Shown here: in pieces, positions 5,609 to 31,604 of the stretch
Position numbering within the stretch: position 1 is the stretch's first letter
How the letters are laid out: each line of letters begins with the position of its first letter
NCBI RefSeq assembly: GCF_004217145.1
Contig: NZ_SHKR01000011.1
Coordinates: forward strand, 1,364,001 to 1,428,000
Direction of reading: 5' to 3'
Source: Kribbella rubisoli
GTDB taxonomy: Bacteria > Actinomycetota > Actinomycetes > Propionibacteriales > Kribbellaceae
DNA length: 64,000 bases
Translations under genes and position numbers: made by a program
The notes under the pieces: generated by a model
What the model saw: the letters and a program-made list of their open reading frames with translations, nothing else
Database searches by the model: none
What the model was told of the DNA's origin: nothing

Positions 5609-6253
5609 CTACATTAGGTCGAGCAGATTCGTCCCTACCGTGCGATCCAGGTGCCGCGCGACCAGCCCGGCCGCCTGCGCCCCGAGTACATCGTTCTCGA
5701 GGTTGTCGCCGATCATCAGGACGTCGGCCGGCTCGGCTCCCAGTGCCTCACAGGTGCGCAGGTACGCCTCCGGGGCCGGCTTGCTGAAGCCGAGCGCCTC
5801 CGAGGTGCAGACCACGTCGATCAGGTCGGCCAGCCCGATCGCCGCCAGCTTCGCGTTCTGCTGCACCGTGTTCCCGTTGGTGAGTACGCCGGTCCGCCAA
5901 CCGTTGCCCTGAGCAACTTCCAGCGCGGGACGCGCGTCCGGGAAGGCGATCCAGTTGCTCCGGTACTGCGTCAGGTAGCCCTCGAACATCTCGTCCAACC
6001 CGGCCTCGGTCGCCGGGACCGGGCGATCGATCACCGGGAGGAAGGCCTGGAGGCGAGCACGGCGCTGGCCTTGATGGGTGAGCTCTCCGGACAGCCAGCG
6101 GGGGTACTGCTCGTCCTCGATCACGAACCATTGCGCAACCAGCTCGTCCGTCGGCGTGAGCCCGAGCTCGGTCACCCAGCTGCGCAGCGCACGTTCGGCG
6201 GAGCCGGTGTGGTCGAACAGGGTGTTGTCGAGGTCGAAGATGACCGCCTTCAC
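5609..6253 (-). CDS. HAD-superfamily hydrolase (phosphatase)
   Basis: A 214-residue HAD phosphatase of the subfamily I, YjjG/Gph-like type. Motif I is FDLDNT with Asp7 as nucleophile and Asp9 as acid/base, motif II is the Thr in LTNGN, motif III is the Lys in SKPAPEAY, and motif IV is GDNLENDV. An alpha-helical cap lies between motifs I and II, as in beta-phosphoglucomutase-like and 2-haloacid members. The start is GTG 6253, which overlaps the stop of the flavoenzyme gene as GTGA; this start gives the canonical short N-terminus before motif I. Next to a lactate 2-monooxygenase homologue, a metabolite-repair or glycolate-phosphate role is possible, but this is speculation. Confidence 0.88.
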   Translation of the reverse strand: MKAVIFDLDNTLFDHTGSAERALRSWVTELGLTPTDELVAQWFVIEDEQYPRWLSGELTHQGQRRARLQAFLPVIDRPVPATEAGLDEMFEGYLTQYRSNWIAFPDARPALEVAQGNGWRTGVLTNGNTVQQNAKLAAIGLADLIDVVCTSEALGFSKPAPEAYLRTCEALGAEPADVLMIGDNLENDVLGAQAAGLVARHLDRTVGTNLLDLM

Positions 6254-7401
6254 GCGCGGACCACCGAGTCGCGGTTGAGTTCGCGGTGATTCGCATACCC
6301 GGACAGCGCCAGCGTCAGATCGAGCTCGGCCAGGAAGCAACGCAGTACGTGCTCGACACCGGCCTGTCCCGCGAGCGCGAGGCCGTAGAGCAGCGGACGG
6401 CCGAGAAGCACGGCCTTGGCACCGAGGGCGAGCGCCTTAGCTGCGTCGGAGCCGGTGCGTACGCCGGAGTCGAACAGGACTGTCAGTTGCTCGCCGACCG
6501 CATCCGCGATCGCAGGGAGCGCGTCGAGCGAGGCGACCGCGCCGTCGACCTGACGGCCGCCGTGGTTCGAGACGACGATGCCGTCGACGCCGTGCTCGGC
6601 CGCGAGTTTGGCGTCCTCGACCGCGGTGATGCCTTTCAGGACGATCGGGCCGTCCCAGTTGTCGCGCAGGAACGACAGGTCGTCCCACGACAGGCCGACG
6701 TTCGGGAAGATCTGCGCCCACAGCATCACCGCGGCGCCGGGATCCTCCGCGATCGGCTTGGCCAGCTTCGATTGGAAGACCGGGTCGCTGAAGTAGTTCG
6801 CGAGCCCCTCCCCCTTCAGGAACGGGAGGAACCCGCGATCCAGGTCGGCCGGCCGCCACCCGATCGTCCCGGTGTCCAGCGTAACGACGAGTACGCCGTA
6901 CCCGGCGGCCTTGGCGCGTTGCAGGAAGCTGAGGCAGACGTCGCGGTCGGTCGGGTAGTACAGCTGGAACCACTTGTTGCTCGCCTCGATCTGCTCGATC
7001 GCGTGGCTCGCCTGGGTCGAGTGCGTGTAGGTCAGACCGAGGGTGTCGGCGGCCCGGGCCGTGGCCAGCTCGCCGTCGGGGTGCGCGAGGGTCTGGACAC
7101 CGATCGGTGCGACTAGGACCGGCGCTGGCATCGCCGTACCGAGGATGGTGCAGGACAGGTCACGTTCGGTGCTGCCGCGGAGCATCCGGGGCGCCAGCCG
7201 CCAGCGGTCGAACGCCGCCTGGTTGGCCCGGGCGGTCGATCCGCCGCCCGCGCTCGGCCCGATGTACCCCATCGCCTCCAGCGTGAGCTTCCCGGCCGCC
7301 TGCGACTCCAGCCGGGCCAGGTCGGTCGTGATCTCCGGCGTCGTCCCCTGCAACATTCCCTGCAGGTAGATCTGCAACTGGTAGTCCCCGAAGTTGGCCA
7401 T
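6250..7401 (-). CDS. FMN-dependent alpha-hydroxy-acid oxidase, lactate 2-monooxygenase-like
   Basis: A 383-residue member of the FMN-dependent alpha-hydroxy acid dehydrogenase family. From its opening (MANFGDY, then IYLQG) and through most of its length it resembles mycobacterial lactate 2-monooxygenase, which converts L-lactate and O2 to acetate, CO2 and water. The catalytic His and Arg sit in SNHGGRQ, the FMN-phosphate region reads DSGVRTG, and FQLYYPTDRD is shared with the family. ATG 7401 matches the family start; GTG 7416 is in frame but less likely. The first 240 bases are overlapped by the upstream Lnt-like frame. The downstream HAD gene overlaps by four bases. Substrate could be lactate or another 2-hydroxyacid. 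Confidence 0.87.
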   Translation of the reverse strand: MANFGDYQLQIYLQGMLQGTTPEITTDLARLESQAAGKLTLEAMGYIGPSAGGGSTARANQAAFDRWRLAPRMLRGSTERDLSCTILGTAMPAPVLVAPIGVQTLAHPDGELATARAADTLGLTYTHSTQASHAIEQIEASNKWFQLYYPTDRDVCLSFLQRAKAAGYGVLVVTLDTGTIGWRPADLDRGFLPFLKGEGLANYFSDPVFQSKLAKPIAEDPGAAVMLWAQIFPNVGLSWDDLSFLRDNWDGPIVLKGITAVEDAKLAAEHGVDGIVVSNHGGRQVDGAVASLDALPAIADAVGEQLTVLFDSGVRTGSDAAKALALGAKAVLLGRPLLYGLALAGQAGVEHVLRCFLAELDLTLALSGYANHRELNRDSVVRA

Positions 7402-8791: not shown

Positions 8792-9359
8792 TGATCATCC
8801 TTTCGCCCAGGCGTAGGCAGAGGGATCGGAAGGCTGGTTCCGGCATGCCTATGCGGTCGCCGTGGTGGAGTTGGATCAGGCCGTGGAGCAGGGCGGCGAA
8901 CATCAGGCTGGTTTCCCAGATGTCTGTGTCGGCGCGGAAGAGCTCCTGCTCGACGCCGGCGGTGATCGCGTCGGCGACGAGGTTGAGCGTGGGTGACTTG
9001 CGAGCCCGGAAGTCCGCGGGGAACTTGCGCGCCTGGTCGCGGCGCTCGGTGAACATGTAGTCGTAGAGCCGGGGATGCTCGAGCGCGAAGTCGACGTGGT
9101 CGATCAGCATCTCCCGCAACAACTCATCTGCCTGAGCAGGACGCTCCGCCGACTCCCAGCGCCGTACCAGTTCGACGAACGCCGCGTCCGCGATCGCGTT
9201 CAGCAGCGTCTCCCGGTCCGGAAAGTACTGGTAGATCGCCATCGGCGTGATCCCGACCGCGGCCGCCACCTTCCGCATCGACACACCGGCCGCGCCGTGC
9301 TCGGTCAGCAGGTACGTCGCCGCCGCGGTGATGCGGTCCTTCGTCGTCACGTCGCTCAT
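8775..9359 (-). CDS. TetR/AcrR-family transcriptional regulator
   Basis: A 194-residue TetR regulator. The N-terminal helix-turn-helix includes GVSMRKVAAAVGITPMAIYQ, followed by the typical YFPDRETLL recognition helix end. The rest is an all-helical ligand-binding and dimerisation domain ending in MINELRI. ATG 9359 gives a standard N-terminus; ATG 9368, three codons upstream, is also possible. It is the first gene of the six-gene minus-strand operon and overlaps the Lnt-like gene by 17 bases. A perfect 17-bp palindrome 23 bases upstream of the start (9382-9398) is the probable autoregulatory operator and may also control the divergent membrane protein gene. Ligand unknown. Confidence 0.9.
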   Translation of the reverse strand: MSDVTTKDRITAAATYLLTEHGAAGVSMRKVAAAVGITPMAIYQYFPDRETLLNAIADAAFVELVRRWESAERPAQADELLREMLIDHVDFALEHPRLYDYMFTERRDQARKFPADFRARKSPTLNLVADAITAGVEQELFRADTDIWETSLMFAALLHGLIQLHHGDRIGMPEPAFRSLCLRLGERMINELRI

Positions 9360-9381
9360 GACAACCATTAAAGACACATTC

Positions 9382-9398
9382 CCTATACGTCGTATAGG
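9382..9398. promoter_or_regulatory. Perfect 17-bp palindrome, probable TetR operator
   Basis: CCTATACG, a central T, then CGTATAGG form a perfect 8-1-8 inverted repeat between the TetR start (9359, minus) and the divergent membrane protein gene (9523, plus). TATA-like bases inside the palindrome could be part of a -10 element. Size, symmetry and position fit a TetR dimer site. That the adjacent regulator binds here is inference. Confidence 0.6.
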
Positions 9399-9522
9399 CA
9401 GAATTACCCTGACTGAACCCTGAGCCATGACATCCGTCAGGCCCGGGCCCCGACGTCCGTCAGCGCCGGAACCGGACGGATCGCATCCGCACCGCGGCCC
9501 GAAGCGCCCGAGAGTTGTAGAC

Positions 9523-10521
9523 ATGACGAACCCGAACGTGGTGACCGCGCCGAAACACAGCAGCGTGAAGCGGAGCTTGCCCGCCCTCGGCCTGTTCTTC
9601 CTGTCGCCCCTGGTCGCGGAGTTCCTGCTCGGGAACATCCCGGTCAGCGCGTTCTACGCGATCCTCACCCTGGCACCGCTGTACGGCGGCGGCGCGGTCC
9701 TGATCCGCGAACTGGTCCGCCGTCGCGGCTGGGGCTACCCCAGCGTGATCGTCCTCGCCCTCGCGTACGGCGTGATCGAGGAAGGCATCACCACCCAGTC
9801 GCTGTTCAACCCGAACTACGCCGACCTGCGCCTGCTCGACCCCGGCCACATCTCGGCGCTGGGTATGGGCGCGCCGTGGACCGTGTTCGTCCTCGGCCTG
9901 CACACGGTGTGGAGCATCACCGTCCCGATCGTCCTGATGGAGTCGGTCTCCCGCCGTCCCCGCGAACCGTGGCTCGGCAAGGTCGGCCTCTGGGTGTACG
10001 GCATGCTCTTCCTCGCCGGCATCGTCGCGACCACCGCGTTCGGCTACTCGAAGGACTCGTTCCGCGCATCGACTGGCCAGGACGTGGGTGTCGGCATCGC
10101 GATCGTCGTCCTGATCGCCCTGGCCGTCTGGATCGGCCGCCGGGCACCTCGCCGTACGACGGGAAGCGTGCCGTCAGCCTGGATCGTCGGGGTGGTCGCA
10201 CTGGCGCTCAGCTCCGGCTGGATGGTCGTCAACGACCAGGTCAAGAACGGCTGGCTCGAGGCGGTCCTTCTGCTGGCGATCGAGGTACTGACGGTCTTCG
10301 TCATCGTGACCTGGTCCCGGCGGACCGGCTGGACCCGGATGCACACGCTGGCCGCAGCGGGCGGCGCATTGCTCACCTATGCGTGGCATGCGTTCCCGGA
10401 GAAGCCGGTCTTCGACGCCCCGCACAGCACCGACCTGATCGGGAATGCGGTCTTCGCCCTGTTGGCGGTGGCCCTGCTGATCTCTGCGACAATCAGGCGT
10501 GACAAGTTCGGTGACTCCTGA
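9523..10521 (+). CDS. Polytopic membrane protein of unknown function
   Basis: A 332-residue integral membrane protein with about nine or ten hydrophobic segments and few polar loops. I do not recognise the family. Visible features are YGVIEEGITTQ in an early helix, which recalls the EE motif of CPBP-like membrane proteases without their other motifs, and a conserved-looking SLFNPNY that follows. ATG 9523 with GAGAG upstream is preferred; ATG 9427 is in frame and would add 32 hydrophilic Arg/Pro-rich residues. It is divergent from the TetR gene across the 17-bp palindrome, and its 3' end overlaps the MFS transporter gene by 23 bases, so the two are probably one transcript. Confidence 0.75.
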   Translation: MTNPNVVTAPKHSSVKRSLPALGLFFLSPLVAEFLLGNIPVSAFYAILTLAPLYGGGAVLIRELVRRRGWGYPSVIVLALAYGVIEEGITTQSLFNPNYADLRLLDPGHISALGMGAPWTVFVLGLHTVWSITVPIVLMESVSRRPREPWLGKVGLWVYGMLFLAGIVATTAFGYSKDSFRASTGQDVGVGIAIVVLIALAVWIGRRAPRRTTGSVPSAWIVGVVALALSSGWMVVNDQVKNGWLEAVLLLAIEVLTVFVIVTWSRRTGWTRMHTLAAAGGALLTYAWHAFPEKPVFDAPHSTDLIGNAVFALLAVALLISATIRRDKFGDS

Positions 10522-11707
10522 CACACGCGGTACTTCGCGGCACGTCAGCCTGGCGTTGTTCGCGCTGGCGACCGGTGGTTTCGCGATCGGGACCGCCGAG
10601 TTCGTCACGATGGGGCTGCTGCCGCAGATCGCGGACGGCGTGCACATCTCGATCCCGACCGCCGGCCATGTCATCTCGGCGTACGCGCTGGGGGTCGTGG
10701 TCGGCGCTCCCGTGATCGCGGCCCTCGGCGCGCGGACCGGGCGGAAGCGGTTGCTGCTCGGGCTGGTCGCGCTCTTCGTGATCGGCAACGTGCTGTCGGC
10801 CGTTGCCTCGAGCTACGAATTCCTGATGGCGGCGCGGTTTCTGTCCGGCGTACCGCACGGAGCGTTCTTCGGGATCGGCGCGGTCGTCGGCGCATCGATG
10901 GTGGCGCCCGAGCGGCGCGCGCGGGCGGTGTCGATGACGATGGTCGGGCTCCCGGTCGCCAACATCATCGGCGTACCGCTGACGACGTTGCTGGGCCAGC
11001 GGCTCGGGTGGCAAGTACCGTTCCTCGCGGTCGGCGTGCTAGGGACACTGACACTAGTTGCAGTGTGGCTATGGGTGCCGGCACAGCCGGTCGGCAGCGA
11101 CGTGAACGTCCGCAGCGAGCTCAGCGCCCTCAAGCGACCGCAAGTGTGGATGGCCCTGCTGGTCGGGATGGTCGGATTCGGAGGCATGTTCGCGACGTAC
11201 TCGTACATCACGCCGACGATGACGGACCTGGCCGGCTTCTCGGAGTCAGCGGTGACGATCGTCCTGGCCGTGTACGGCGTGGGCATGACGGTTGGCACCG
11301 TCGTCGGTGGGCGGCTCGCGGACCGATCGCTCATGGGCAGCGTGTACGGCGGACTGATCGCGGTAGCCGTCGTACTCGGAGCGTTCGGCTGGCTCGCGCA
11401 GACGCGGCCCGGTGCGCTGATCGCGGTGTTCGCGTTGGGGTGCTCGGCGAGCATCCTTGTACCGGCGCTGCAGACCCGCCTGATGGACGTCGCGCACGAG
11501 GGCCAGTCACTGGCCGCGTCGCTCAACCACTCCACCTTGAACATCGCCAACGCGCTCGGCGCCTGGCTCGGCGGCGTCGTACTCGCGGCCGGCTACGGCT
11601 ACGAATGGCCGAGCCGACTGGGCGCCGTACTCGCTGTCGCGGGTCTGCTGCTCGCACTGATTTCCGGTCTGATGGAACGTCGAGGGACAAATCAGGTGCT
11701 TGCCTGA
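10499..11707 (+). CDS. MFS transporter, DHA1 (AraJ/Cmx-type) drug or sugar exporter
   Basis: A 402-residue major facilitator with twelve predicted helices. GTAEFVTMGLLPQIA in helix 1 is the signature of the AraJ/YdhP/chloramphenicol-efflux branch of DHA1. The A-like motif GARTGRKRLL lies between helices 2 and 3, with a second copy, GGRLADRS, in the C-terminal half. GTG 10499 lies inside the end of the preceding membrane protein gene; GTG 10511 is an alternative. Co-transcription with that gene and the nearby TetR operator suggest ligand-induced efflux. The substrate cannot be read from sequence. Confidence 0.88.
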   Translation: MTSSVTPDTRGTSRHVSLALFALATGGFAIGTAEFVTMGLLPQIADGVHISIPTAGHVISAYALGVVVGAPVIAALGARTGRKRLLLGLVALFVIGNVLSAVASSYEFLMAARFLSGVPHGAFFGIGAVVGASMVAPERRARAVSMTMVGLPVANIIGVPLTTLLGQRLGWQVPFLAVGVLGTLTLVAVWLWVPAQPVGSDVNVRSELSALKRPQVWMALLVGMVGFGGMFATYSYITPTMTDLAGFSESAVTIVLAVYGVGMTVGTVVGGRLADRSLMGSVYGGLIAVAVVLGAFGWLAQTRPGALIAVFALGCSASILVPALQTRLMDVAHEGQSLAASLNHSTLNIANALGAWLGGVVLAAGYGYEWPSRLGAVLAVAGLLLALISGLMERRGTNQVLA

Positions 11708-18794: not shown

Positions 18795-18872
18795 CAACAT
18801 GTGAGGTCTGACACGACACGTCACAATCTCGGTCGCTGCGGGGTCGTATGTATGACCGAGGAGGGCCGAATC

Positions 18873-20264
18873 GTGCCGGGTCCCTTGAACAATGTGCGCA
18901 ATCTGCGCGGGAGAGTATTCCCTGATCACTGGTCGCTGCTGTTCGGCCAGATCGCCTTCTACAGCTTCGTTCTGGTGACACTCACCGGCCTCGTGCTGAT
19001 GGTGCCGTACCAGCCGTCGGTCGGACACGTTGTGTACGACGGTCCGTACGCACCGCTGCACGGCGTGCAGATGTCACAGGCCCTGGACTCGACGATGAAG
19101 ATCAGCTTCGAGATGCGCGGCGGCCTGCTGATCCGCCAGATGCACCACTGGGGCGCGCTGATCATGGTGGCGGCGATCCTGCTGCACCTGTTGCGGCTGT
19201 TCTTCACCGCGGGGTTCCGCCGGCCGCGGCGGCTGAACTGGCTGGTCGTCTTCGGGCTGCTGATCATCACGCTGGGCGCCTGTCTGACCGGTACGTCGCT
19301 CCCGGACGACATGGCGTCCGGCACGAGTCTCGCCGTACTCGACGGGGTGCTGCAGGCGACTCCGTTCGTGGGTACGCAACTGTCGGCGCTGCTGTTCGGG
19401 GGGGACTTCCCGGGCGATGTGATCAGCCGGTTCTACCCGCTGCACATCATCGTCCTCCCTGCCCTGCTCGTCGTGCTCTTCATCGTCAGCGGGATCCTCG
19501 CGCTGAAGAACAAGCCGGCGCAGTTCCCCGGCCCCGGGCGTACCGAGGAGAACGTGGTCGGAAGCCGGGCGACGGTCGCCGTGGTGAAGGGCGCGGGCCT
19601 GTTCTGCTTCGTGGCCGCAGTGGTGACCCTGATGGCCTCGCTGGCCACCATCAACCCGGTGTGGCTGTTCGGTCCGGCCGATCCGGCGGACACCTCGGCC
19701 GGAGTCGGTCCGGCGTGGTACCTCGCTTTCCTGGACGGTGCGCTGCGGCTGGCCCCCGGGTGGGAGGTCGTCTGGTGGGGCCGGACCATCAGCTTCGCCA
19801 TCCTGGTCCCGGTCGCGGTCTGCACGCTGTTCCTGGCGCTCCTCGGGATCTACCCGTTCATCGAGGAGCGGGTGACCCGCGACCGGCGGGAGCACCACCT
19901 TCTCGAACGCCCCCGCAGCAACCCGATCCGCACCGGCATCGGCGTAGCCGGGGTCGTCTTCTACGGCACCCTGTGGGCCGCAGCCGGCGCCGACACGATG
20001 GCCGTCCAGTTCCACCTCTCGGTGAACGCGCTGATCCACCTGTTCCAGGCACTACTGATCCTCGGCCCGCCGATCGCCTTCAGCATCACCCGCCGCCTCT
20101 GCCTCGGCCTGCAGTTGCACGACGCCGAGGTCGCGGCGCACGGCATCGAGACCGGCAAGATCCTCCGGCTTCCCAGCGGCGGGTATGTCGAGGAGCACGG
20201 CCCGGCCAAACCTCAGCTCACATCATCGGAGGACAGCCGCGTGGATGCGGCCGGTAGTCGTTGA
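18873..20264 (+). CDS. Orphan cytochrome b (QcrB-like) with altered heme and quinol-site residues
   Basis: A 463-residue membrane protein homologous to actinobacterial QcrB, the cytochrome b of the bc1 complex. FPDHWSLLFG opens the protein, HHW (91-93) and His105 supply one histidine from each heme pair, and QFPGPGRTEENVVG and the C-terminal GIETG-RLPSGGY are QcrB-typical. Two key positions differ. The fourth helix has His191 but Ser206 where QcrB has the second heme ligand (bH heme). The Qo-site PEWY-type motif reads PAWY, without the acidic residue. No Rieske (qcrA) or cytochrome c (qcrC) gene is adjacent. GTG 18873 has AGGAGGG 7 bases upstream; ATG 18852 is in frame. The 3' end overlaps xdhC by 42 bases. 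Electron partner unknown. Confidence 0.85.
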   Translation: MPGPLNNVRNLRGRVFPDHWSLLFGQIAFYSFVLVTLTGLVLMVPYQPSVGHVVYDGPYAPLHGVQMSQALDSTMKISFEMRGGLLIRQMHHWGALIMVAAILLHLLRLFFTAGFRRPRRLNWLVVFGLLIITLGACLTGTSLPDDMASGTSLAVLDGVLQATPFVGTQLSALLFGGDFPGDVISRFYPLHIIVLPALLVVLFIVSGILALKNKPAQFPGPGRTEENVVGSRATVAVVKGAGLFCFVAAVVTLMASLATINPVWLFGPADPADTSAGVGPAWYLAFLDGALRLAPGWEVVWWGRTISFAILVPVAVCTLFLALLGIYPFIEERVTRDRREHHLLERPRSNPIRTGIGVAGVVFYGTLWAAAGADTMAVQFHLSVNALIHLFQALLILGPPIAFSITRRLCLGLQLHDAEVAAHGIETGKILRLPSGGYVEEHGPAKPQLTSSEDSRVDAAGSR

Positions 20265-21335
20265 CAGCGGCCGGGCACTCGCCGCGCTGCGCGTGGCGAT
20301 GATCTCGGCCGCGATCGAGATCGCGGTCTCCTCGGGAGTTCGCGCGCCGAGATCGAGACCGGTCGGCGACAACAGCCGGGCCAGCTCGTCCTCGGTCAGA
20401 CCCGCGGCCCGCAACCGCGACAGCCGATCCTCGTGGGTACGCCGCGAGCCCATCGCGCCGATGTAGCCCGCGTCCGTCCGCAAAGCCAACTCCAGCAGCG
20501 GCACGTCGAACTTCGGATCATGCGTCAGCACACAGATCGCCGTACGGCGGTCGATCGCGTCGAGCTGACCGGCGAGGAACCGGTGCGGCCAATCGACCAC
20601 GACCTCGTCGGCCTCGGGGAACCGCAGCCGTGTCGCGAACACGCCGCGGGCATCGCACACCGTCACGTGATAGCCGAGGAACTTGCCGACCCGGGCGACC
20701 GCGGCCGCGAAGTCGATCGCGCCGAACACGAACATCCGCGGCGGTGGCGCGAGCGCCTGGACGAACACCGCGATGTCCGTACGCCGGCATTCGCCGTGAG
20801 CGCCGTACTCGCGGATCGCAGTCGAGCCGGTGTCGAGCATGGTCACCGCGTCCTCGACCACGGCCGCGTCCAGACCCGGATCGCCCAGACTGCCGGTGAC
20901 CGCGTCCGCCTCGACGACGATGCGCCGCCCCAGGCCTTCTCCCGGCGTGACGACGGTCGCGACCGCTACCGGTCGGCCCGAGGCTACCGCGGCGGTCACC
21001 GTGCCGAAGTCTGCGAACGACCCCGCGTCGACAGGCTCGACCAGGACCTCGACCACACCGCCACACGTCAGACCGATCGCAAAGACGTCGTCATCGGACA
21101 CGCCGTACCGGCGTACCTCGGGCCGGCCCGTCCGGATGACGTCCTGCGCCACCGCGTAGACGTCCGACTCGACGCAACCGCCGGACACACTGCCGACCGC
21201 CACGCCGGCGCCGGACACGGCCATCGCCGCGCCGGGCTGACGAGGTGCCGATCGGAACGTGTCGATCACCGTCGCGATCGCGAACCGGTCACCCTCGGCG
21301 TACCACCGGCGCACGTGGGGCAGGACGTCACGCAC
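20223..21335 (-). CDS. xdhC: XdhC-family molybdenum cofactor maturation protein
   Basis: A 370-residue XdhC/CoxI protein. The N-terminal XdhC domain contains SAPRQPGAAMAVS and GSVSGGCVE, and the C-terminal Rossmann domain contains FGAIDFAAAVARVGKFLGY (about residues 207-225) and GYIGAMGSRRTH. XdhC proteins bind the molybdenum cofactor, protect it during sulfuration and insert it into xanthine dehydrogenase-family enzymes. GTG 21335 overlaps the end of the 2Fe-2S subunit gene by 8 bases, so it is the third gene of this operon and most likely serves the enzyme encoded just upstream. It could also serve the PaoABC-like enzyme at 47-51 kb, which lacks its own XdhC. Convergent with the cytochrome b gene. 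Confidence 0.9.
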   Translation of the reverse strand: MRDVLPHVRRWYAEGDRFAIATVIDTFRSAPRQPGAAMAVSGAGVAVGSVSGGCVESDVYAVAQDVIRTGRPEVRRYGVSDDDVFAIGLTCGGVVEVLVEPVDAGSFADFGTVTAAVASGRPVAVATVVTPGEGLGRRIVVEADAVTGSLGDPGLDAAVVEDAVTMLDTGSTAIREYGAHGECRRTDIAVFVQALAPPPRMFVFGAIDFAAAVARVGKFLGYHVTVCDARGVFATRLRFPEADEVVVDWPHRFLAGQLDAIDRRTAICVLTHDPKFDVPLLELALRTDAGYIGAMGSRRTHEDRLSRLRAAGLTEDELARLLSPTGLDLGARTPEETAISIAAEIIATRSAASARPLSTTTGRIHAAVLR

Positions 21336-21810
21336 CCATGTCCTCCGCGCCCGCCTTCACCGCTTCGCGAATCCGCGAGTACGTGCCGCAGCGGCAGATG
21401 TTGCGCAGCTCGTCGAGGTCCGCGTCGGTGATGTCGCGGCCCTCCTTCCGGGCCTGCTTCACCTTCGCGACCGCGGCCATGATCTGCCCGGGCTGGCAAT
21501 ACCCGCACTGGGCCACGTCGTACGTCAGCCAGGCCTCCTGCATCGGATGCAGATCCTTGCCGACGGTCGCCGGCAGCCCTTCGATCGTGGTGACCTCATC
21601 GGTCGGCTCGATGTCCTTGACCTGTACCGAGCACGGATTGAACGCCTTGCCGTTGATATGCGAGGTGCACGACTTGCAGACCTCGAGCGCGCAGCCGTAC
21701 TTCGGTCCGGTGACGCCGAGCAGGTCACGCAGGACCCACAACAGCCGGACGTTGTCCTCGGCCTCGACGCTGATCTTCTTGCCGTTGAGCTTGAACGTGT
21801 GCGTTGGCAT
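21328..21810 (-). CDS. [2Fe-2S] small subunit of a molybdenum hydroxylase (IorA-like)
   Basis: A 160-residue electron-transfer subunit with two [2Fe-2S] clusters. The plant-ferredoxin-type N-terminal cluster uses the cysteines of CALEVCKSC and a later Cys in FNPC. The helical C-terminal domain has CGYCQPGQ and CRCGTY. There is no FAD subunit in this operon, as in isoquinoline 1-oxidoreductase and related two-subunit enzymes. ATG 21810 has GAGGAA upstream and lies 7 bases after the large-subunit stop. No Tat signal is present, so it probably crosses the membrane bound to the Tat-tagged large subunit. It passes electrons from the molybdenum site to an external acceptor. Confidence 0.92.
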   Translation of the reverse strand: MPTHTFKLNGKKISVEAEDNVRLLWVLRDLLGVTGPKYGCALEVCKSCTSHINGKAFNPCSVQVKDIEPTDEVTTIEGLPATVGKDLHPMQEAWLTYDVAQCGYCQPGQIMAAVAKVKQARKEGRDITDADLDELRNICRCGTYSRIREAVKAGAEDMGA

Positions 21811-21817
21811 GGATTCC

Positions 21818-24163
21818 TCAGAACGTGTGGTCGAGGCCGTCGGTCGGCGACTGCGGAGTGGACGGCTGCAACGGCAGCGGCTCGAAGCCGAGCGTGCCGT
21901 GGTTGATCGGGAAGTACGTCGGCATCGTGCCGGTCGCCCGCGCATAGGCACACGCGACCGCCGCGAAGGCCGGAGCCACCGCGAGCTCACCGGCGCCGCT
22001 CGGGCTCTCGCTCGTGTTCGGCATGATCACCACCTCGACATCCAGCGGCGTGTTCCACTCGCGGGTGTAGAAGTAGTTGTCCCAGCTGCCCTCGAGCGGG
22101 ATGCCGTCCTTGATGTGCAGGCTCGACGTCAGAGCCAGCGCGATCGCGTCCTGCAACCCGCCGATCATCTGGGCCTCCAGACCCCGCGGGTTGATGCAGA
22201 ACCCGGGATCGACGACGATCACCGCCTTGGTGACCCGCGGACCGGTCACGCCTTCGCCGTCGACCGGCCGGTTGACCGTCGCCGGCCGGCAGTCGATCTC
22301 GACCAGCGTCGCGACCGCGGCCCGGTACTCCGAGTGCACGCCGACACCCTGCGCCGTACCCTTCGGCATCGCCTTGCCCCAGTTGCCGACCTCGGCCGCC
22401 TTGTTCAGTACGGCGAGCAGTCGCTTGTCCTTGAGGAAGCTCCGCCGGAACCGGACCGGGTCCTGCCCCATCTTCGCGGCGAGCCGGTCGACCATCAGTT
22501 CCTCGGCGCAGACCACGTTCGGCGAGTAGATGTTGCGCATGCTGCCCGTGTTGAACTTCAGCGGGACCTCGTTGAGCAGCTGGGTGGTCACACCGAAGTT
22601 GTACGGCGACGACTGGCTGAGCTCGAAGATCGTCTCGGCGAACGACAGGTTGCCGCCGACCGGCAGATCCGCGGCGAACGCGGTGATCATCTCGCCGAGG
22701 CCGTGCCCGAAGTCGGTCTGCACGCTCGTGTGCCGCTGCTCGTAGCTGAGCACATTGCCGGCCAGGTAGTTCACCCGGACACGGGAGGTGCTCATCGGGT
22801 GGGTGCGTCCCTGGCGGAAGTTGTCCGTCCGCGACCAGGACAGCTTCACTGCCTTGCCCATCTTCTGCGAGATCTCCGCGGCCTCCGCCGCGACGTCGTG
22901 GAACAGGTGCCGGCCGAACGATCCGCCGCCCTGGATCACATGCACCTTCACCGCGTCGATCGGCAGACCGAGCTGTTTGGCGATGTCCTCCTGGGCCACG
23001 ATCGGCACCTTGAGGCTGGACCAGATCTCGGCGCTGTCCGGCCGGACGTCAGCGATCGCGCAGTCCGGCTCGAGCGGGCTGTTGCTGGCGAACGCGAAGA
23101 CGAACTCGGCGTCGATCGTCTGCGACAGCACCGGCGGCACGACCATCGGCAACTGGGCCGCGCGCAGCTTCGCCAGCACGGTGGCGTCGGACTCGTCGTC
23201 CACCGTGCCCGGTCCCCAGGTCGCGTCGACCTTCTGGATGGCGTCGATGCACTGACCGAACGTGTCGCCCCTGATCGCAACACCGTGGGTGATGCCAACG
23301 ACATCGGAGATCCCCGGCATCGCACGCAGGGCGGCGAGGTTGTTGATCGACTTCAGCGTCCCGTTGATCGTCGGCGGCCGGGCCACCATGGTCGGCTTCG
23401 CGCCCGGAACCTGCAGGTCCATTGCGAACTGCTTGCGACCGGTGACGATGTCGTGGCCGTCGACCCGGTTGCGTGGCCGGCCGAGAACGCTGAACTCGGA
23501 CGGTGACTTCAGCTCGGCGGACACCGCGATCGTCTTGATGCTCGCTGCGGCCTCGGCCAGCGATCCGTACGTCGCAGTAAGGCCTCCCGGACCCGTGAGC
23601 ACGCCGGCCCGCGCCGTCACCTTGCCGGCAGCGACGCCCCAGTGCGCCGCGGCCGTGTCCACCAAGCGCTGCCGGGCGATCGCGGCGGCGGTCCGGACCG
23701 GCAGGTACATGCTGCGCATCGAGTTCGAACCGCCGGTGAGCTGGTTCATCAGCAACTCCGGCCGCGCGTCCGCCAGGCCGATCTCGACCTTGTCCATCGG
23801 CAGATCGAGCTCTTCGGCAACCATCATCGCGAACGCGGTGGTGATGCCCTGGCCGACCTCGGCCCGCGGTACTGCGAAGAACGCCGTACCGTCGGTCTTC
23901 AGCTCGACCGTGATCAGGCCGGAGGTCGGCGCGGCCGCGAGGTTCTGCAGGTCGCCGAGGTCGAAGATGTCCTCCGGCTGCGGCAGCGACGGTACGGCGG
24001 CATCGGCCGCCCGCGGGTCGGTGTCGTTGACCAGCCAGCTCACACCGACGGCCAGGGTCGGCGCGGCGATCAGGTATCCGAGGACGCGACGCCGGCCCAG
24101 CAGTCCGCGCCCGCCGCTCGGCTGATCGGTTGGTCGGTCCAACGAACGGGGGCGTTCGGCCAT
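21818..24163 (-). CDS. Molybdopterin large subunit, isoquinoline 1-oxidoreductase beta-like, Tat-exported
   Basis: A 781-residue molybdenum-binding subunit of the xanthine dehydrogenase family, IorB-like branch (aldehyde or N-heterocycle oxidation). A twin-arginine signal, GRRRVLGYL (23-31), is followed by a hydrophobic stretch, so the enzyme is exported folded. Cofactor-contact regions include GGSNSMRS, GGGSFGRHLFHD and GSMRNIYSPN, and the catalytic Glu lies in SPSGAGELAVAP. Two internal repeats of the Mo-binding domain are visible, as in IorB. ATG 24163 has GGAGGA six bases upstream. First gene of the operon with the 2Fe-2S subunit and XdhC; a PucR-type regulator gene lies 127 bases upstream on the same strand. 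Substrate not predictable. Confidence 0.9.
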   Translation of the reverse strand: MAERPRSLDRPTDQPSGGRGLLGRRRVLGYLIAAPTLAVGVSWLVNDTDPRAADAAVPSLPQPEDIFDLGDLQNLAAAPTSGLITVELKTDGTAFFAVPRAEVGQGITTAFAMMVAEELDLPMDKVEIGLADARPELLMNQLTGGSNSMRSMYLPVRTAAAIARQRLVDTAAAHWGVAAGKVTARAGVLTGPGGLTATYGSLAEAAASIKTIAVSAELKSPSEFSVLGRPRNRVDGHDIVTGRKQFAMDLQVPGAKPTMVARPPTINGTLKSINNLAALRAMPGISDVVGITHGVAIRGDTFGQCIDAIQKVDATWGPGTVDDESDATVLAKLRAAQLPMVVPPVLSQTIDAEFVFAFASNSPLEPDCAIADVRPDSAEIWSSLKVPIVAQEDIAKQLGLPIDAVKVHVIQGGGSFGRHLFHDVAAEAAEISQKMGKAVKLSWSRTDNFRQGRTHPMSTSRVRVNYLAGNVLSYEQRHTSVQTDFGHGLGEMITAFAADLPVGGNLSFAETIFELSQSSPYNFGVTTQLLNEVPLKFNTGSMRNIYSPNVVCAEELMVDRLAAKMGQDPVRFRRSFLKDKRLLAVLNKAAEVGNWGKAMPKGTAQGVGVHSEYRAAVATLVEIDCRPATVNRPVDGEGVTGPRVTKAVIVVDPGFCINPRGLEAQMIGGLQDAIALALTSSLHIKDGIPLEGSWDNYFYTREWNTPLDVEVVIMPNTSESPSGAGELAVAPAFAAVACAYARATGTMPTYFPINHGTLGFEPLPLQPSTPQSPTDGLDHTF

Positions 24164-24259
24164 CAGGGTCCTCCGTGCTCGAGCAATGCTGGGAACGCAG
24201 TCTGGCACCGCCGATCGCGCGGCGGGATGGCCACGATGCCTACGTTTCGCGCGGTTTCA

Positions 24260-25607: not shown

Positions 25608-26630
25608 TCAGACGGAGCGGGTGGCTACCAGGTCGCAGAGGGTGTCGAGGGCTTCTCGGCCGGGGCCTTCGGGGAGGGTGCTGAGGAGCTTGCGGGCGTC
25701 GGCCGCGCGGCGGCGTACGTCGTCCTCGGCTTGCTGGAAGGACGGGTGGGAGCGGAGGAGGTCCAGCGTCTCGGACAACCGTTCGTCGTCGGAGAGGTCG
25801 GAGTCCAGGAGCTCCAGCAGGCGGACGTCCTTGGGATCGGTGGGATCCGCCTGGGCGCGGAAGATCAGCACCGGGAGCGTCGGCACGCCCTCGCGGAGAT
25901 CCGTGCCGGGAGTCTTGCCTGACTGGTCGGACTCCGAGGCGATGTCGAGCAGGTCGTCGGCGAGCTGGAAGGCGACGCCGATCTCCTCGCCGAACGCGCG
26001 CAAGGACTCCTGCACCTCCTCCGAGGCACCGGCGTACCGGGCACCGAAGAGGGCGGACGTCGCGATCAGCGAACCGGTCTTGTCGGCGACCACCGACAGG
26101 TAGTGCTTCAACGGGTCCTGGCCTTCGCCGACACCCATCGTCTCGCGGATCTGGCCCTCGACCAGCCGGCCGAAGGTCCGGGCCTGGATCCGGACCGCCT
26201 CCGGCCCGAGGTCCGCGACCAGGTCCGACGCGCGGGCGAACAGCCAGTCGCCGGACAGGATCGCGACCGAGTTGTCCCACCGCGCGTTCGCGGTGGACGA
26301 GCCGCGACGCAGCGCCGCCTCGTCCATCACGTCGTCGTGGTGCAGCGTCGCGACGTGCGTGAGCTCGACGACGACCGCCGCCTTCACTACCTCGTCGGAG
26401 GCGACATCAGCGCCGAACTCGGCCCCGAGCAGCACCAGCAGCGGCCGGAACCGCTTGCCGCCGGCAACCATCACGTGCTGGGCGGCCGCAGTGACGAACG
26501 GCGCCTCGGACTGGGTCGCGTCGAGCAAGGCCTGCTCGACCCGTTCCAGCCCAGCACGAACCCGGGACTCGAGCGCCGCATCGGCGAACTCGAATCCCAG
26601 GCTCTCGGCCGGCAGCGGGGTCGGACTCAA
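25608..26630 (-). CDS. Polyprenyl diphosphate synthase (menaquinone side chain)
   Basis: A 340-residue trans-isoprenyl diphosphate synthase. The first Asp-rich motif is DDVMD (99-103) and the second is DDLLD (about 226-230); GGKRFRP (57-63) binds the diphosphate. Small residues (Ala, Thr) precede the first motif, which permits long-chain products. The gene starts at TTG 26630, overlapping the nuoN stop as TTGA, so it is the fifteenth gene of the nuo operon. That position, and menG and menJ at the other end, make synthesis of the menaquinone tail (octa- or nonaprenyl) the likely job. Downstream, 25568-25583 carries a small ACTCC/GGAGT hairpin of uncertain meaning. Confidence 0.92.
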   Translation of the reverse strand: MSPTPLPAESLGFEFADAALESRVRAGLERVEQALLDATQSEAPFVTAAAQHVMVAGGKRFRPLLVLLGAEFGADVASDEVVKAAVVVELTHVATLHHDDVMDEAALRRGSSTANARWDNSVAILSGDWLFARASDLVADLGPEAVRIQARTFGRLVEGQIRETMGVGEGQDPLKHYLSVVADKTGSLIATSALFGARYAGASEEVQESLRAFGEEIGVAFQLADDLLDIASESDQSGKTPGTDLREGVPTLPVLIFRAQADPTDPKDVRLLELLDSDLSDDERLSETLDLLRSHPSFQQAEDDVRRRAADARKLLSTLPEGPGREALDTLCDLVATRSV

Positions 26631-28216
26631 CGGATGAACTCACCAGCTCGGGCCGCCAGGTCGAGCACCGGTCCGGGAACCAGACCGAGAACCACCGTGG
26701 CAGCAAGACCCAGCGCGACCGCCGAAGTGGTCTGCCAACCCGGCAGCGCCACGTCCGGTGCGTCGGCCGGCAGGTCGGAGAAGAACATCAGCACGATCAC
26801 GCGGACGTAGAAGAACGCGGCGACCAGGCTCGACAGTACGGCGACGACGACCAGCGGCCACGCGCCGCCCGTCCACGCCGCGCTGAAGACCGCCCACTTG
26901 CCGGTGAAGCCCGCGGTCAGCGGGATGCCGGCGAACGACAGCAGGAAGAACGCGAAGATGCCGGCCAACAGCGGCGACTTCTTGCCCAGGCCCGCCCAGC
27001 GGGACAGGTGCGTCGCCTCACCGCCGGCGTCGCGCACCAGCGTGACGACGGCGAACGCGCCGATGGTCGGGAAGCCGTACGAGACCAGGTAGAACAGCAC
27101 CGCCTGGGTCGAGGTGATCCCGTTGTGTACGCCGCTGCCCGCCTGCGCGAGGCCGACGAACGCGGTCAGCAGGAAGCCTGCGTGCGCGATCGACGAGTAC
27201 GCGAGCATCCGCTTCACATCGGTCTGGGTGATCGCGACGATCGAACCGACCACCATGGTGAGGATCGCGACGATCCACATCATCGGCGCCCAGTCCCAGC
27301 GCGTGCCGCCGAGGGCCACGTAGAAGACCCGCATCAGCCCGACGAACGCGGCGATCTTGGTGCAGGCCGCCATGAAGCCGGTGACCGGCGTCGGGGCGCC
27401 CTGGTACACGTCCGGCGTCCAGGAGTGGAACGGCACGGCGCCGACCTTGAACAGCAGGCCGACACCCACCAGGCCGGTCCCGGCCAGCAGGATCGTGTCG
27501 CCGCCGGTCTGGGTGGACAGCGCGTCCGAGATCCCGCCGAGCGACATCGTGCCGGCGTACCCGTAGAGCAGCGCGATCCCGAACAGCAGGAACGCCGACG
27601 AGAACGCACCGAGCAGGAAGTACTTCATCGCGGCTTCCTGCGAGATCAGCCGGCGACGGCGCGCCAGGCCGCAGAGCAGGTACAGCGGCAGCGAGAAGAC
27701 CTCGAGCGCTACGAACAGCACCAGCAGGTCGTTCGACGAGGCGAACAGCATCATGCCGCCGACCGCGAACAGGGTCAGCGGAAAGATCTCGGTGTGCTCG
27801 ATGCGAGCCGCCGTCCCCTCCCGCTCGGCCTCGGAGCCCGGTACGGCGGCCGCCTGGCCGGCGAACGCGGACAGGCCGCCGTCGATCGAACGCTCGGCGA
27901 ACAGCAGCACACTGATCAGCGTCAGGGCCAGCAGGATGAGCCAGGTGAACAGCGCGGGGCCGTCGACCGAGATCGCACCCTGCGCGGCGATCAGCTCCTT
28001 CTTGTCGTTCATCAGGATGCCGGTCAGGACCCCGGACACGACCACGGCGACCACCGTGATCGCCAGCTGCACCAGGTGCCGCATGGGCCGCGGCAGGAAC
28101 GCCTCGACCAGGACGCCGACGCACGCCGCACCGAAGACGACGAGCAGCGGCATCAGCTCGTTGTACTCGATCTTCGGCGCCGTGAAGTCCGCCAGCGGCA
28201 GCAACATCGCGCTCAC
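26627..28216 (-). CDS. nuoN: NADH-quinone oxidoreductase subunit N
   Basis: A 529-residue antiporter-like membrane subunit of complex I with about 14 helices. AVPFHSWTPDVYQGAPTPV, near the middle, is the NuoN signature and carries the broken-helix region; charged residues for proton transfer include the Glu and Lys residues of helices 5 to 8. An N-terminal loop near residues 115-130 (FAGQAAAVPGSEAERE) is longer than in E. coli, as in other actinobacteria. GTG 28216 overlaps the nuoM stop by four bases; the TGA overlaps the TTG of the polyprenyl synthase. Confidence 0.96.
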   Translation of the reverse strand: MSAMLLPLADFTAPKIEYNELMPLLVVFGAACVGVLVEAFLPRPMRHLVQLAITVVAVVVSGVLTGILMNDKKELIAAQGAISVDGPALFTWLILLALTLISVLLFAERSIDGGLSAFAGQAAAVPGSEAEREGTAARIEHTEIFPLTLFAVGGMMLFASSNDLLVLFVALEVFSLPLYLLCGLARRRRLISQEAAMKYFLLGAFSSAFLLFGIALLYGYAGTMSLGGISDALSTQTGGDTILLAGTGLVGVGLLFKVGAVPFHSWTPDVYQGAPTPVTGFMAACTKIAAFVGLMRVFYVALGGTRWDWAPMMWIVAILTMVVGSIVAITQTDVKRMLAYSSIAHAGFLLTAFVGLAQAGSGVHNGITSTQAVLFYLVSYGFPTIGAFAVVTLVRDAGGEATHLSRWAGLGKKSPLLAGIFAFFLLSFAGIPLTAGFTGKWAVFSAAWTGGAWPLVVVAVLSSLVAAFFYVRVIVLMFFSDLPADAPDVALPGWQTTSAVALGLAATVVLGLVPGPVLDLAARAGEFIR

Positions 28217-29736
28217 TTCTGTCCCTCCGTCACGGGGATCTGCGGTGCCTTGTCGGTCACGCCGACCCGCTGCATGGTCGATTCGACCGCGGGCTTGATG
28301 ATGTCGACCACCGGCTTCGGGAAGATGCCCAGGCCGATGATCAGGATCACGAGCGGCGCGATCGCGAGCAGCTCACGCGGGTTCAGGTCTTTCAGTTTCT
28401 CGATCCCGTCGCGGACCGGACCGGTCATCGTGCGTTGGTACATCAGCAGGATGTACAGCGCGGCCAGCACGATACCGAGGACGGCGATCACCGCGATCAC
28501 CTTGTGCCGGCTGAAGGTCCCGGCCAGCACCATGAACTCGGAGATGAACGGCGACAGGCCGGGCAGCGCCAGGCTGGAGAGGCCGGCGAACAGGAACGTA
28601 CCGGCGAGCACCGGCGCCACCTTCTCGACCCCGCCGTAGTCGGCTATCCGTGCGGACCCGCGCCGGGAGATCAGGTACCCGGCGACCAGGAACAGTGCCG
28701 CGGTGGAGAGACCGTGGTTGAACATGTACAGCGTCGACCCGGTCAGGCCCTGCGACGTCAGCGCGAAGATACCCATCACGATGAAGCCGAAGTGCGAGAT
28801 CGAGGTGTACGCGATCAGTCGCTTGATATCGGTCTGCCCGATCGCCAGCAGCGCGCCGTACAGCACCGAGATCAGCGCCAGCACCATCACGACCGGGGTG
28901 GCCCACTGGGACGCGTTCGGGAACAGGCCCAGGCAGAACCGGATCATCCCGAAGGTGCCGATCTTGTCCAGGATGCCGACCAGGAGCACCGACGTACCCG
29001 GCGTCGCCTCACCGGCCGCGTCCGGCAGCCAGGTGTGGAACGGCACCATCGGCGCCTTCACCGCGAACGCGAACATGAAGCCGAGGAACAGCCAGCGCTC
29101 GGTGTTCTGGCTCATGTCCAGCTTCACCATGTCGCTCAGCAGGTACGACGGAGCGCCGTGCTTGGCCGAGACGACGTACAGGCCGACGACCGAGGCCAGC
29201 ATGAGCAGACCGCCGAGCAGCGAGTACAGCAGGAACTTGACCGCGGCGTAGGAACGCTGCGGACCGCCGAAGCCGCCGATCAGGAAGTACATCGGGATCA
29301 GCGTGGCCTCGAACAGCACGTAGAAGAGGAACACGTCGGTGGCGGCGAACACGCCGATCGACAGAGCCTCCAGGCCGAGGATCCAGGCGAAGAAGGACTT
29401 CTCCGACCAGCGGCCGTTCTGTGCGTCGTTCCAGGACGCGATGATCACGATCGGCGACAGCAGCGCGGTCAGCACCACCAGCACCACGCCGACACCGTCG
29501 AGGCCGAGCGCGTAGTGCGCGCCGAAGGCCTTGATCCAGGTGTACGTCTCGGCGTAGTCCTCGGCGCCGTTGCGGTGGTAGCCGATCGCGACGATCGCGG
29601 TCAGCACCAGCGTGACGAGCGAGAACCCGAGCGCGACCTGCTTGGCCAGCAGGCCTTTCGCCTTGGGCACCAGCATCGTCGCGATGGCCCCGACGAACGG
29701 CAGGAGCAATAACAGGGTCAGCCAACCGATGTTCAC
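28213..29736 (-). CDS. nuoM: NADH-quinone oxidoreductase subunit M
   Basis: A 507-residue antiporter-like subunit with about 14 helices. [13 protein letters not shown] provides the conserved helix-5 Glu, [14 protein letters not shown] provides the helix-7 Lys and the HTWLPDA signature, and a further Lys sits in the C-terminal half. The GTG at 29736 overlaps the nuoL stop as GTGA, and the gene's own TGA overlaps nuoN in the same way. The three antiporter subunits L, M and N lie consecutively at the distal end of the operon. Length and motifs are normal. Confidence 0.96.
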
Positions 29737-31604
29737 GACAACCTCACCGCGAGGAGGGCGACGACCACGAATGCGGCGCCGAAGACCATGCTGAGTGCGT
29801 ACGAACGGACGAAGCCCGTCTGGACCCGGCGGAGCCGGCCGGACAGTCCGCCGAACAGTGCGGCCAGGCCGTTGACCAGGCCGTCGACGCCCCGGTTGTC
29901 GAGCCAGACCAGGGTCCGGGTCAGGTACTGGCCCGGACGCATGAAGAGAGCCTCGTTCAGCGCGTCGCCGTACAGGTCACGCCGCGCGAAGGTGGTGACC
30001 GGCGAGACCCGGACGGGCGCTGTGCGCGGGATGTCCCGGCGGAAGAGCATGACTCCGACGCCCGCGCCGACAAGTACCACCGCGAGGATGATCAGGCTCA
30101 TCGCCACGTCGCTGATCGGCAGCTCGGCTTCCTCGAACCCGGTCACCGGGGTCAGCCACTTCACGATCCAGTGACCGACGAAGTACAGCGCCCCGCCGAC
30201 GAGCGAGAGGATCGCCAGCACGACCAGCGCACCGGTCATCACCTTCGGGGACTCGTGCGGATGTACGTCCTCCTCCCAGCGCTTCTCGCCGAAGAAGGTC
30301 ATCATCATCAGCCGGGTCATGTAGAACGCGGTGATCCCGGCGCCGAGAAGCGCGCACAGACCGACCACCGTGTTGTCCGCGAACGCGACCTCGATGATCT
30401 TGTCCTTGCTGAAGAAGCCGGAGAACGGCGGGATGCCCAGGATCGCCAGGTAGCCGAAGGCGAAGGTGACGTAGGTGATCCGCAGGTACTTGCGCAGGGC
30501 ACCGTAGCGCCGCATGTTCACGTCGTCGTTCATGCCGTGCATGACCGATCCGGCGCCGAGGAACATGTTGGCCTTGAAGAAGCCGTGCGTGAGCAGGTGG
30601 AAGATCGCGAACACGTACCCGACTGGGCCGAGGCCGGCGGCCAGCATCATGTAGCCGATCTGGCTCATCGTCGAACCGGCCAGCGCCTTCTTGATGTCGT
30701 CCTTGGCGCAACCGATGATCGCACCGGCGAGCGCGGTGACCGTACCGACGATCACCACCGCGGTGGACGCCGCGTCGGACTGCTCGAAGATCGCGTGCGA
30801 GCGGACCACCAGGTAGACACCCGCGGTGACCATGGTCGCCGCGTGGATCAGCGCCGACACCGGGGTCGGGCCTTCCATCGCGTCCAGCAGCCACGACTGC
30901 AGCGGCACCTGCGCGGACTTACCGCAGGCCGCCAGCAGCAGCATCAGGCCGAGCAGCGTGGCCCAGGTCTTCGACAGGTGCTCGGCGCCGGCGTTCACGG
31001 TGGCGAAGGCCGACGAGCCGAACAGCGCCCACATGCTCATCACCGCGAGCGAGAGGCCGATGTCACCGACCCGGTTCACGACGAACGCCTTCTTCGCGGC
31101 GACCGCTGCCGACGTCTTGTACTGCCAGAAGCCGATCAGCAGGTACGACGCCAGACCGACGCCCTCCCAGCCGACGAAGACCAGCAGGTAGTCGGCGGCC
31201 AGCACCAGCAGCAGCATCGAGGCGATGAACAGGTTCAGGTACCCGAAGAACCGCCGCCGGCGCTCGTCGTGCTCCATGTAGCCGATCGAGTAGATGTGGA
31301 TCAGCGAACCCACACCGGTGATCAGCAGCACGAACAGGATCGACAGCGGGTCGATCAGCAGTGAGAACTCCACCTTGATCTGACCGACCGAGAACCACTC
31401 GAACAGCCGGACCGTCTCGGCCCGGTTGTCGCTGGGCTTGGCCTGCATCTGGATGAACAGGACGACGCCGAAAGCGAAGGAGATCAGCGGCGCCAGCGTG
31501 CCCAGCAGGTGACCCCATGCGTTGGTGGCCTTGCCACCGAGCAGCAGGATCGCCGCGGACACCGCCGGTACCGCGACCAGCAGCCACGTCAGCTCATGAC
31601 TCAT
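29733..31604 (-). CDS. nuoL: NADH-quinone oxidoreductase subunit L
   Basis: A 623-residue antiporter-like subunit with about 16 helices, including the long C-terminal lateral helix and anchor. [18 protein letters not shown] gives the helix-5 Glu motif, [20 protein letters not shown] the helix-7 Lys and Trp-rich signature, and [18 protein letters not shown] the central His/Lys helix. ATG 31604 has GAGGT upstream and lies 11 bases after the nuoK stop, the largest gap in the distal half of the operon. Length and motifs match NuoL of other actinobacteria. Confidence 0.96.

Follow-up and report, generated by a model that had tools for sequence, protein, structure and literature searches.

A QcrB paralogue of Kribbella with features of a lost heme bH site and a conserved ECF41-like promoter

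The window, a stretch of 64,000 nucleotides from the genome of Kribbella rubisoli (8.64 Mb, 19 contigs), contains an orphan gene for a cytochrome b behind an ECF41-like promoter (Table 1). At the place of the GTG taken as its start, most Kribbella orthologues have an ATG that follows a ribosome-binding-like sequence; of the other in-frame starts, a GTG (18801) precedes the promoter, and the ATG at 18852 is a possible alternative. An earlier note on this DNA had claimed that the protein aligns with actinobacterial QcrB along its whole length. This was borne out by the NCBIfam family NF050120 (actinobacterial QcrB), which is matched by residues 7-447 with a score of 563.3 (cut-off 500), and by alignments to the chains 7q21_B, 7rh5_E and 6adq_B; in Pfam, cytochrome b families alone were matched. 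A protein search of the genome revealed a second QcrB (G000:C4:228206) with the four heme-ligating histidines, which adjoins one of the nine Rieske matches found genome-wide, a QcrA-like protein (C4:227874). As the genome thus has a regular four-His QcrB as well, located with its Rieske match on another contig, the gene in the window is a paralogue; the two proteins are 46% identical over 438 residues.

The further claim that no Rieske or cytochrome c subunit is encoded nearby held for the eight neighbouring proteins that were scanned together with the paralogue, among which neither was found; one of the eight is a plant-type [2Fe-2S] subunit. The paralogue is arranged tail to tail with a Mo-hydroxylase gene set (window 20223-24208, minus strand) made up of XdhC-like, [2Fe-2S] and Mo-binding genes, and this set recurs beside the paralogue in a single synteny group of Kribbella. 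That group also has a nuo operon ending near the orphan gene; in the window this end comprises a polyprenyl synthetase gene and genes for three antiporter-type subunits of NADH-quinone oxidoreductase (25608-31601, minus strand). No fixed genomic partner was found across the Kribbella loci: the end of the nuo operon and the genes for the Mo-hydroxylase, cupin, Rrf2 and PLD proteins were rejected as partners because they recur only within one synteny group. An AlphaFold2 prediction, made from an alignment of 21 rows, was poor (mean pLDDT 49.8) and was left out of all readings.

Table 1. Features of the QcrB paralogue and its promoter, in window coordinates
Feature	Position	Strand	Remarks
ECF41-like promoter	18819..18848	+	-35 CGTCACA at 18819-18825, 16-nt spacer, -10 GGTC at 18842-18845, then GTA
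Coding sequence of the orphan QcrB paralogue	18873..20264	+	463 amino acids, GTG start
Gln26, replaces the Qi-site Glu	18948..18950	+	Corresponds to Mtb QcrB Glu49 by alignment offset; Gln in 29/29 Kribbella
His91-His92, helix B	19143..19148	+	His91 in 43/43 and His92 in 42/43 members; His91 is the first helix-B ligand by alignment, heme bL
His105, helix B, former bH ligand	19185..19187	+	Kept in 27/29 Kribbella, 1/14 others
Val126, replaces the bH-side helix-C glycine	19248..19250	+	Val in 29/29 Kribbella; Gly in 46/46 four-His QcrB
Thr141, replaces the Qo-site Tyr	19293..19295	+	Corresponds to C. glutamicum Tyr153 by alignment offset; Thr in 29/29 Kribbella
His191, helix D, second bL ligand	19443..19445	+	43/43 members
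Ser206, replaces the helix-D bH ligand	19488..19490	+	His in 0/29 Kribbella, 1/14 others, 46/46 four-His QcrB
PAWY (P280-A281-W282-Y283), replaces PDWY/PEWY	19710..19721	+	29/29 Kribbella

The altered sequence is inherited: intact orthologues are present in 29 of 38 Kribbella genomes, 28 of them besides that of the window and at identities of 69-93%; in eight of the 38 genomes no orthologue was found at an E-value of 1e-160. The set of 29 leaves out a damaged copy in genome G031 (locus L060, 9413-10765), in which an internal deletion takes out the PAWY stretch and the frame is otherwise open, and counts the two copies of genome G012, which have identical scores, once. Fourteen further members, from Actinopolymorpha (L050, L051), Nocardioides (L053) and other genomes of the same order and class, were aligned. 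Eight of these (L050, L051, L055-L059 and L117) are PAWY-like and carry PSWY, PTWY or ALWY, and five (L053, L112, L113, L114 and L128) form a Q/R group with PDWY, Gln at 105 and Arg at 206. The last one, L119b, has PDWY, Gln105 and Arg206 like the Q/R group, yet lies apart; a further gene of the Q/R type, L151, is outside the 43 aligned members. It should be noted that locus L119 contains both a bH-less (5973-7364, minus strand) and a four-His QcrB gene (9164-10684, minus strand) with a FAD-type gene, named by eye, between them, and that two ECF41-like sigma genes are present as well.

In an unrooted tree, the 43 members are split from 46 four-His QcrB proteins with a FastTree support of 0.995, and the same split is recovered when the bH, Qi and Qo-acid columns are masked (support 0.987; UFBoot 90). 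Midpoint rooting places L119b outside the other 42 members. The best 30 loci of a class-wide profile search, which is not to be taken as a census, were read and comprised 26 four-His genes, three bH-less genes and the gene of the window; a second search, with a profile of the Q/R type, was run at a threshold of 1e-170.

The residues that remain or are replaced in the ligand region had been named correctly in the earlier note: the translation and the codon positions confirm His91/92, His105 and His191, and helix D aligns without a gap to 7q21_B, 7rh5_E and 6adq_B, so that Ser206, 15 residues after His191, occupies the position of the second helix-D histidine. With the assignment of each histidine to bL or bH, which we take over from bc1 structures, both bL ligands are present in all 43 members and both bH ligands in none, the latter partly by construction for the 14 non-Kribbella members, which were picked partly for missing bH ligands, whereas the 29 Kribbella proteins were chosen by identity alone; all 46 four-His QcrB proteins have both pairs. 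The two Kribbella orthologues that lack His105 have Gln instead. The suggestion that Ser could serve as a heme ligand was not supported, since position 206 is occupied by Gly in ten of the 29 Kribbella orthologues, by Ala in five, by Ser in only four, by Leu in four and by Val in one, and is lost in five, so that Ser is not a conserved ligand; in addition, residue 126 is Val throughout.

Four glycines presumably pack on the two hemes. Those on the bL side, 39 and 140, are conserved in all 43 members. On the bH side, the column of the helix-C glycine (126) holds Leu in all five proteins of the Q/R group and Trp in L119b, and in the eight PAWY-like proteins from outside Kribbella it holds Ala three times and Val, Gly, Ile, Trp and Leu once each; the helix-A glycine (25) is kept in 28 of the 29 Kribbella proteins, three of the eight PAWY-like others, all five of the Q/R group and L119b. 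The proposed loss of one heme site is supported by the loss of the bH ligands, and it is well supported by the sequences that one site was lost and the other was kept. We infer that the paralogue most likely holds a single bis-His heme, bL. Nevertheless, because in Kribbella His105 and glycine 25 are mostly kept and the inner halves of TM A and TM B vary little, the inner site might still hold a quinone or a five-coordinate heme.

The Qo motif had been described as PAWY instead of the PEWY type, and of the two features for which a conservation check had been proposed, PAWY was found in all 29 intact Kribbella orthologues, whereas Ser206 was not conserved. The site numbering of the Mtb and C. 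glutamicum proteins was transferred by alignment offsets to solved QcrB chains. In Mtb QcrB, Glu49 of the Qi site contacts menaquinone (available part of PMC8616580), and C. glutamicum QcrB has a Glu at the Qi site and Tyr153 at the Qo site (available part of PMC9162462). The column of the Qi Glu holds Gln in all eight PAWY-like others, and hence in all 37 PAWY-like members including Kribbella, Val in all five proteins of the Q/R group and Glu in L119b. The column of the Qo Tyr holds Tyr in all 46 four-His QcrB proteins and all five of the Q/R group. The Q cycle requires both hemes and both quinone sites, and on these grounds it is very unlikely that the paralogue would run one; the earlier view that a normal Q cycle is improbable thus gains support from the lost heme site and the replacement of the Qi Glu and the Qo Asp.

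Purifying selection on the paralogue persists: the median dN/dS is 0.264, with a maximum of 0.41 in 406 genome pairs, and the corresponding value for the regular QcrB in these 29 genomes is 0.198. The variation was expressed as entropy across the orthologues, relative to the protein mean. The lowest values belong to the inner halves of TM A (0.24) and TM B (0.55), to the outer ef loop around PAWY (0.39) and to TM G (0.49). At the upper end are the DE and FG loops (2.24 and 1.73), the inner half of TM D (1.82), the C tail (1.61) and the outer half of TM A (1.48). The regular QcrB is near average at the DE loop (0.94), the inner half of TM D (0.99) and the FG loop (0.89), and therefore the relaxation at these places is peculiar to the paralogue; the C tail of the regular protein, with a value of 2.28, is likewise variable. 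TM A, with its low inner and high outer variability, breaks the simple rule of a kept outer and a relaxed inner side.

All 29 Kribbella genes are preceded by the motif YGTCAC(A/G)-N16-NGTC, in which GTCAC, GTC and a T two bases further on are invariant; neither a promoter nor a sigma factor had figured in the earlier note. The ECF41 signature is given as TGTCACA-n16-CGTC by Wecke et al. (available part of PMC3426412). Its consensus is matched with at most two mismatches in all 29 cases (24 with two, five with one), which are not independent of one another owing to shared descent, though the neighbourhoods differ; the promoter in the window has two mismatches and a spacer of exactly 16 nucleotides. 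As a control, random windows of 196 bases were taken at these loci, and only 2.3% of them have two or fewer mismatches. The reversed motif was found at two of the 29 genes and spacers of 15, 17 and 18 nucleotides at none, and the matches obtained with a spacer of 19 nucleotides (26 of 29) are attributed to an overlap within GTCGTA. The mean for 300 shuffled motifs was 0.54 of 29 genes, and one of them, which is close to the true motif, reached 25. Of the 14 non-Kribbella genes, two have no mismatch in the same scan, one has one, two have two, four have three and five have four; one of the last group, L113, has an exact site further up, and the exact ECF41 consensus is found upstream of L112, L113 and L117.

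Just upstream of the -35 element (window 18801-18815), a conserved GTGA, each of the first three bases of which is present in 27 of the 29 genes, is accompanied by a block containing GAC; together with GTCAC, these elements form a loose inverted repeat, which may be an operator. In the genome of the window, TGTCACA-N16-SGTC occurs 11 times, versus six occurrences of the reversed control. Two of the 11 sites precede ECF41-like genes, one precedes a carboxymuconolactone-decarboxylase-like gene, two precede short membrane or flavin-type genes (named by eye), and several face no clear gene.

Sigma genes were named ECF41-like by similarity, with SnoaL_2 below the Pfam cut-off in four of the seven that were scanned, absent from two and above the cut-off in one. 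Such a gene lies within 10 kb at six of 15 non-Kribbella bH-less loci, at three of 14 loci with a four-His QcrB (the orphan status of which was checked for some) and at only one of 28 Kribbella loci. The binomial chance of six in 15 is about 3e-6, a rough value that takes the density from the 13 sigma genes in the genome of the window. ECF41-like sigma genes are also found directly upstream of four-His QcrB genes, at L219 (6946-7908) and L122 (8288-9289), and thus the sigma link may predate the loss of bH. A gene for a type-II NADH dehydrogenase is located directly upstream of the cytochrome b gene at L053, L151 and L152, and at L151 the pair is preceded by TGTCACA-N16-GGTC. The sigma gene of the window's genome that most resembles the one at L151 (L212, on G000:C5; 60% identity) lies together with an NmrA-like gene downstream of TGTCACA-N16-TGTC. 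At the four-His locus L116, an ECF41-like sigma factor and a type-II NADH dehydrogenase are encoded along with an NmrA-like protein and a fumarate-reductase-like flavoprotein.

The loss of the bH features, the retention of the bL features, the conserved promoter, the purifying selection and the lack of a fixed neighbour are evident at the level of sequence. The best explanation, to which we assign a probability of about 0.6, is a one-heme, bH-less branch of QcrB with its own ECF41-like promoter that would exchange single electrons and run no Q cycle. This would be an old paralogue branch in which the inner redox site, i.e. heme bH and the Qi acid, was lost and the outer site was kept, the latter consisting of heme bL with both histidines and the cd and ef loops that make up the Qo crater. 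The PAWY branch has, in addition, lost the acid and the tyrosine of the Qo site. The protein most likely adopts the fold of a QcrB core, with a single low-spin bis-His heme close to its outer side, and menaquinone binding may persist without Q-cycle turnover. Single electrons might pass to or from a partner at the outer face or the quinone pool, which is the least certain step. The gene would be expressed from a promoter of its own, which an ECF41-type sigma factor probably recognizes. Because the inner half of the electron path appears to be dismantled and the promoter resembles that of a stress sigma factor, the role is probably other than ordinary respiration. A more specific proposal is tentative, namely that in actinobacteria a bc-type cytochrome b, trimmed to its bL half with one heme and placed under ECF41 control, serves the menaquinone pool as a single-electron valve and, in some genomes, is coupled to a fumarate-reductase-like flavoprotein and a type-II NADH dehydrogenase.

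Alternatively, the paralogue might replace one QcrB protomer in the bcc-aa3 supercomplex, and the resulting half-dead heterodimer would slow or redirect electrons under stress. The identity to the regular QcrB and the little variable outer ef loop are compatible with such a partnership, as is the co-purification of S. coelicolor QcrB3 with supercomplex parts and Nar1 (available part of PMC7931247). However, the open frame between stops is longer in the regular QcrB (562 versus 489 codons), and the paralogue varies in its inner loops; incorporation into the supercomplex is considered unlikely. Somewhat more doubtful is a role as a sensor of heme or menaquinone without electron transfer, which would fit Gln26, shared by all PAWY-like members, the low variability of the inner half of TM A, the loss of the Qo acid and the lack of a fixed neighbour. 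Against a sensor stand the Pfam matches, which are to cytochrome b families only, and the presence of both bL ligands in every member, which is what redox use would predict.

That the gene is merely tolerated by the cell on its path to loss seems highly improbable, in spite of its absence from eight Kribbella genomes, the damaged copy in G031 and the loss of the ligand position in five of the 29 orthologues, because the dN/dS values (median and maximum) and the retention of both PAWY and the promoter in all 29 argue against decay. Least credible is a functional two-heme QcrB with an unusual fourth ligand: the high overall similarity, the NF050120 score above the cut-off and the frequent retention of His105 would agree with it, but position 206 is Ser, Gly, Ala, Leu, Val or lost, glycine 126 is replaced by Val, and neither the Qi Glu nor the Qo Asp is present.

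By the accepted view, the Q cycle depends on both hemes of cytochrome b. If the proposed one-heme reading is true, a natural one-heme branch would be a ready-made tool for asking how bL and the Qo crater work by themselves, and stray QcrB genes, which have been mentioned in Streptomyces, would become tied to the ECF41 group of sigma factors. No description of a bH-less QcrB was found among the literature matches listed, which does not prove its absence; ECF41 and "cytochrome b" co-occur in one of the papers searched, PMC6180224.

The paralogue has full-length homology, the bL ligands and the outer ef loop in common with the QcrB of the actinobacterial cytochrome bcc complex (NF050120; 7q21, 6adq, 7rh5), but it lacks the bH ligand pair, the Qo Asp and Tyr, the Qi Glu and an adjoining gene for a Rieske protein or cytochrome c. 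Of QcrB2 and QcrB3 of S. coelicolor (available part of PMC7931247), QcrB3 is described as encoded away from the qcr-cta genes, which likens it to the paralogue. QcrB is also matched in 82 plasmid records, 33 of them from Streptomyces. The five plasmid copies that were read (L215-L219, from Streptomyces and Embleya records) differ from the paralogue in that all have four His and PDWY; no Rieske gene is annotated near two of them (L217, L218), an ECF41-like sigma gene is located directly upstream of another (L219), and L216 has a near-consensus promoter within 300 bases. In the available part of the ECF41 study (PMC3426412), the activating signal is called unknown, and COE and ECF41 genes are the conserved regulon members reported, with none beyond them; a cytochrome b such as the paralogue is not named there. 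With the promoters of the COE target genes described there, the promoter of the paralogue shares its layout, i.e. a GTCAC core, a 16-nt spacer and GTC.
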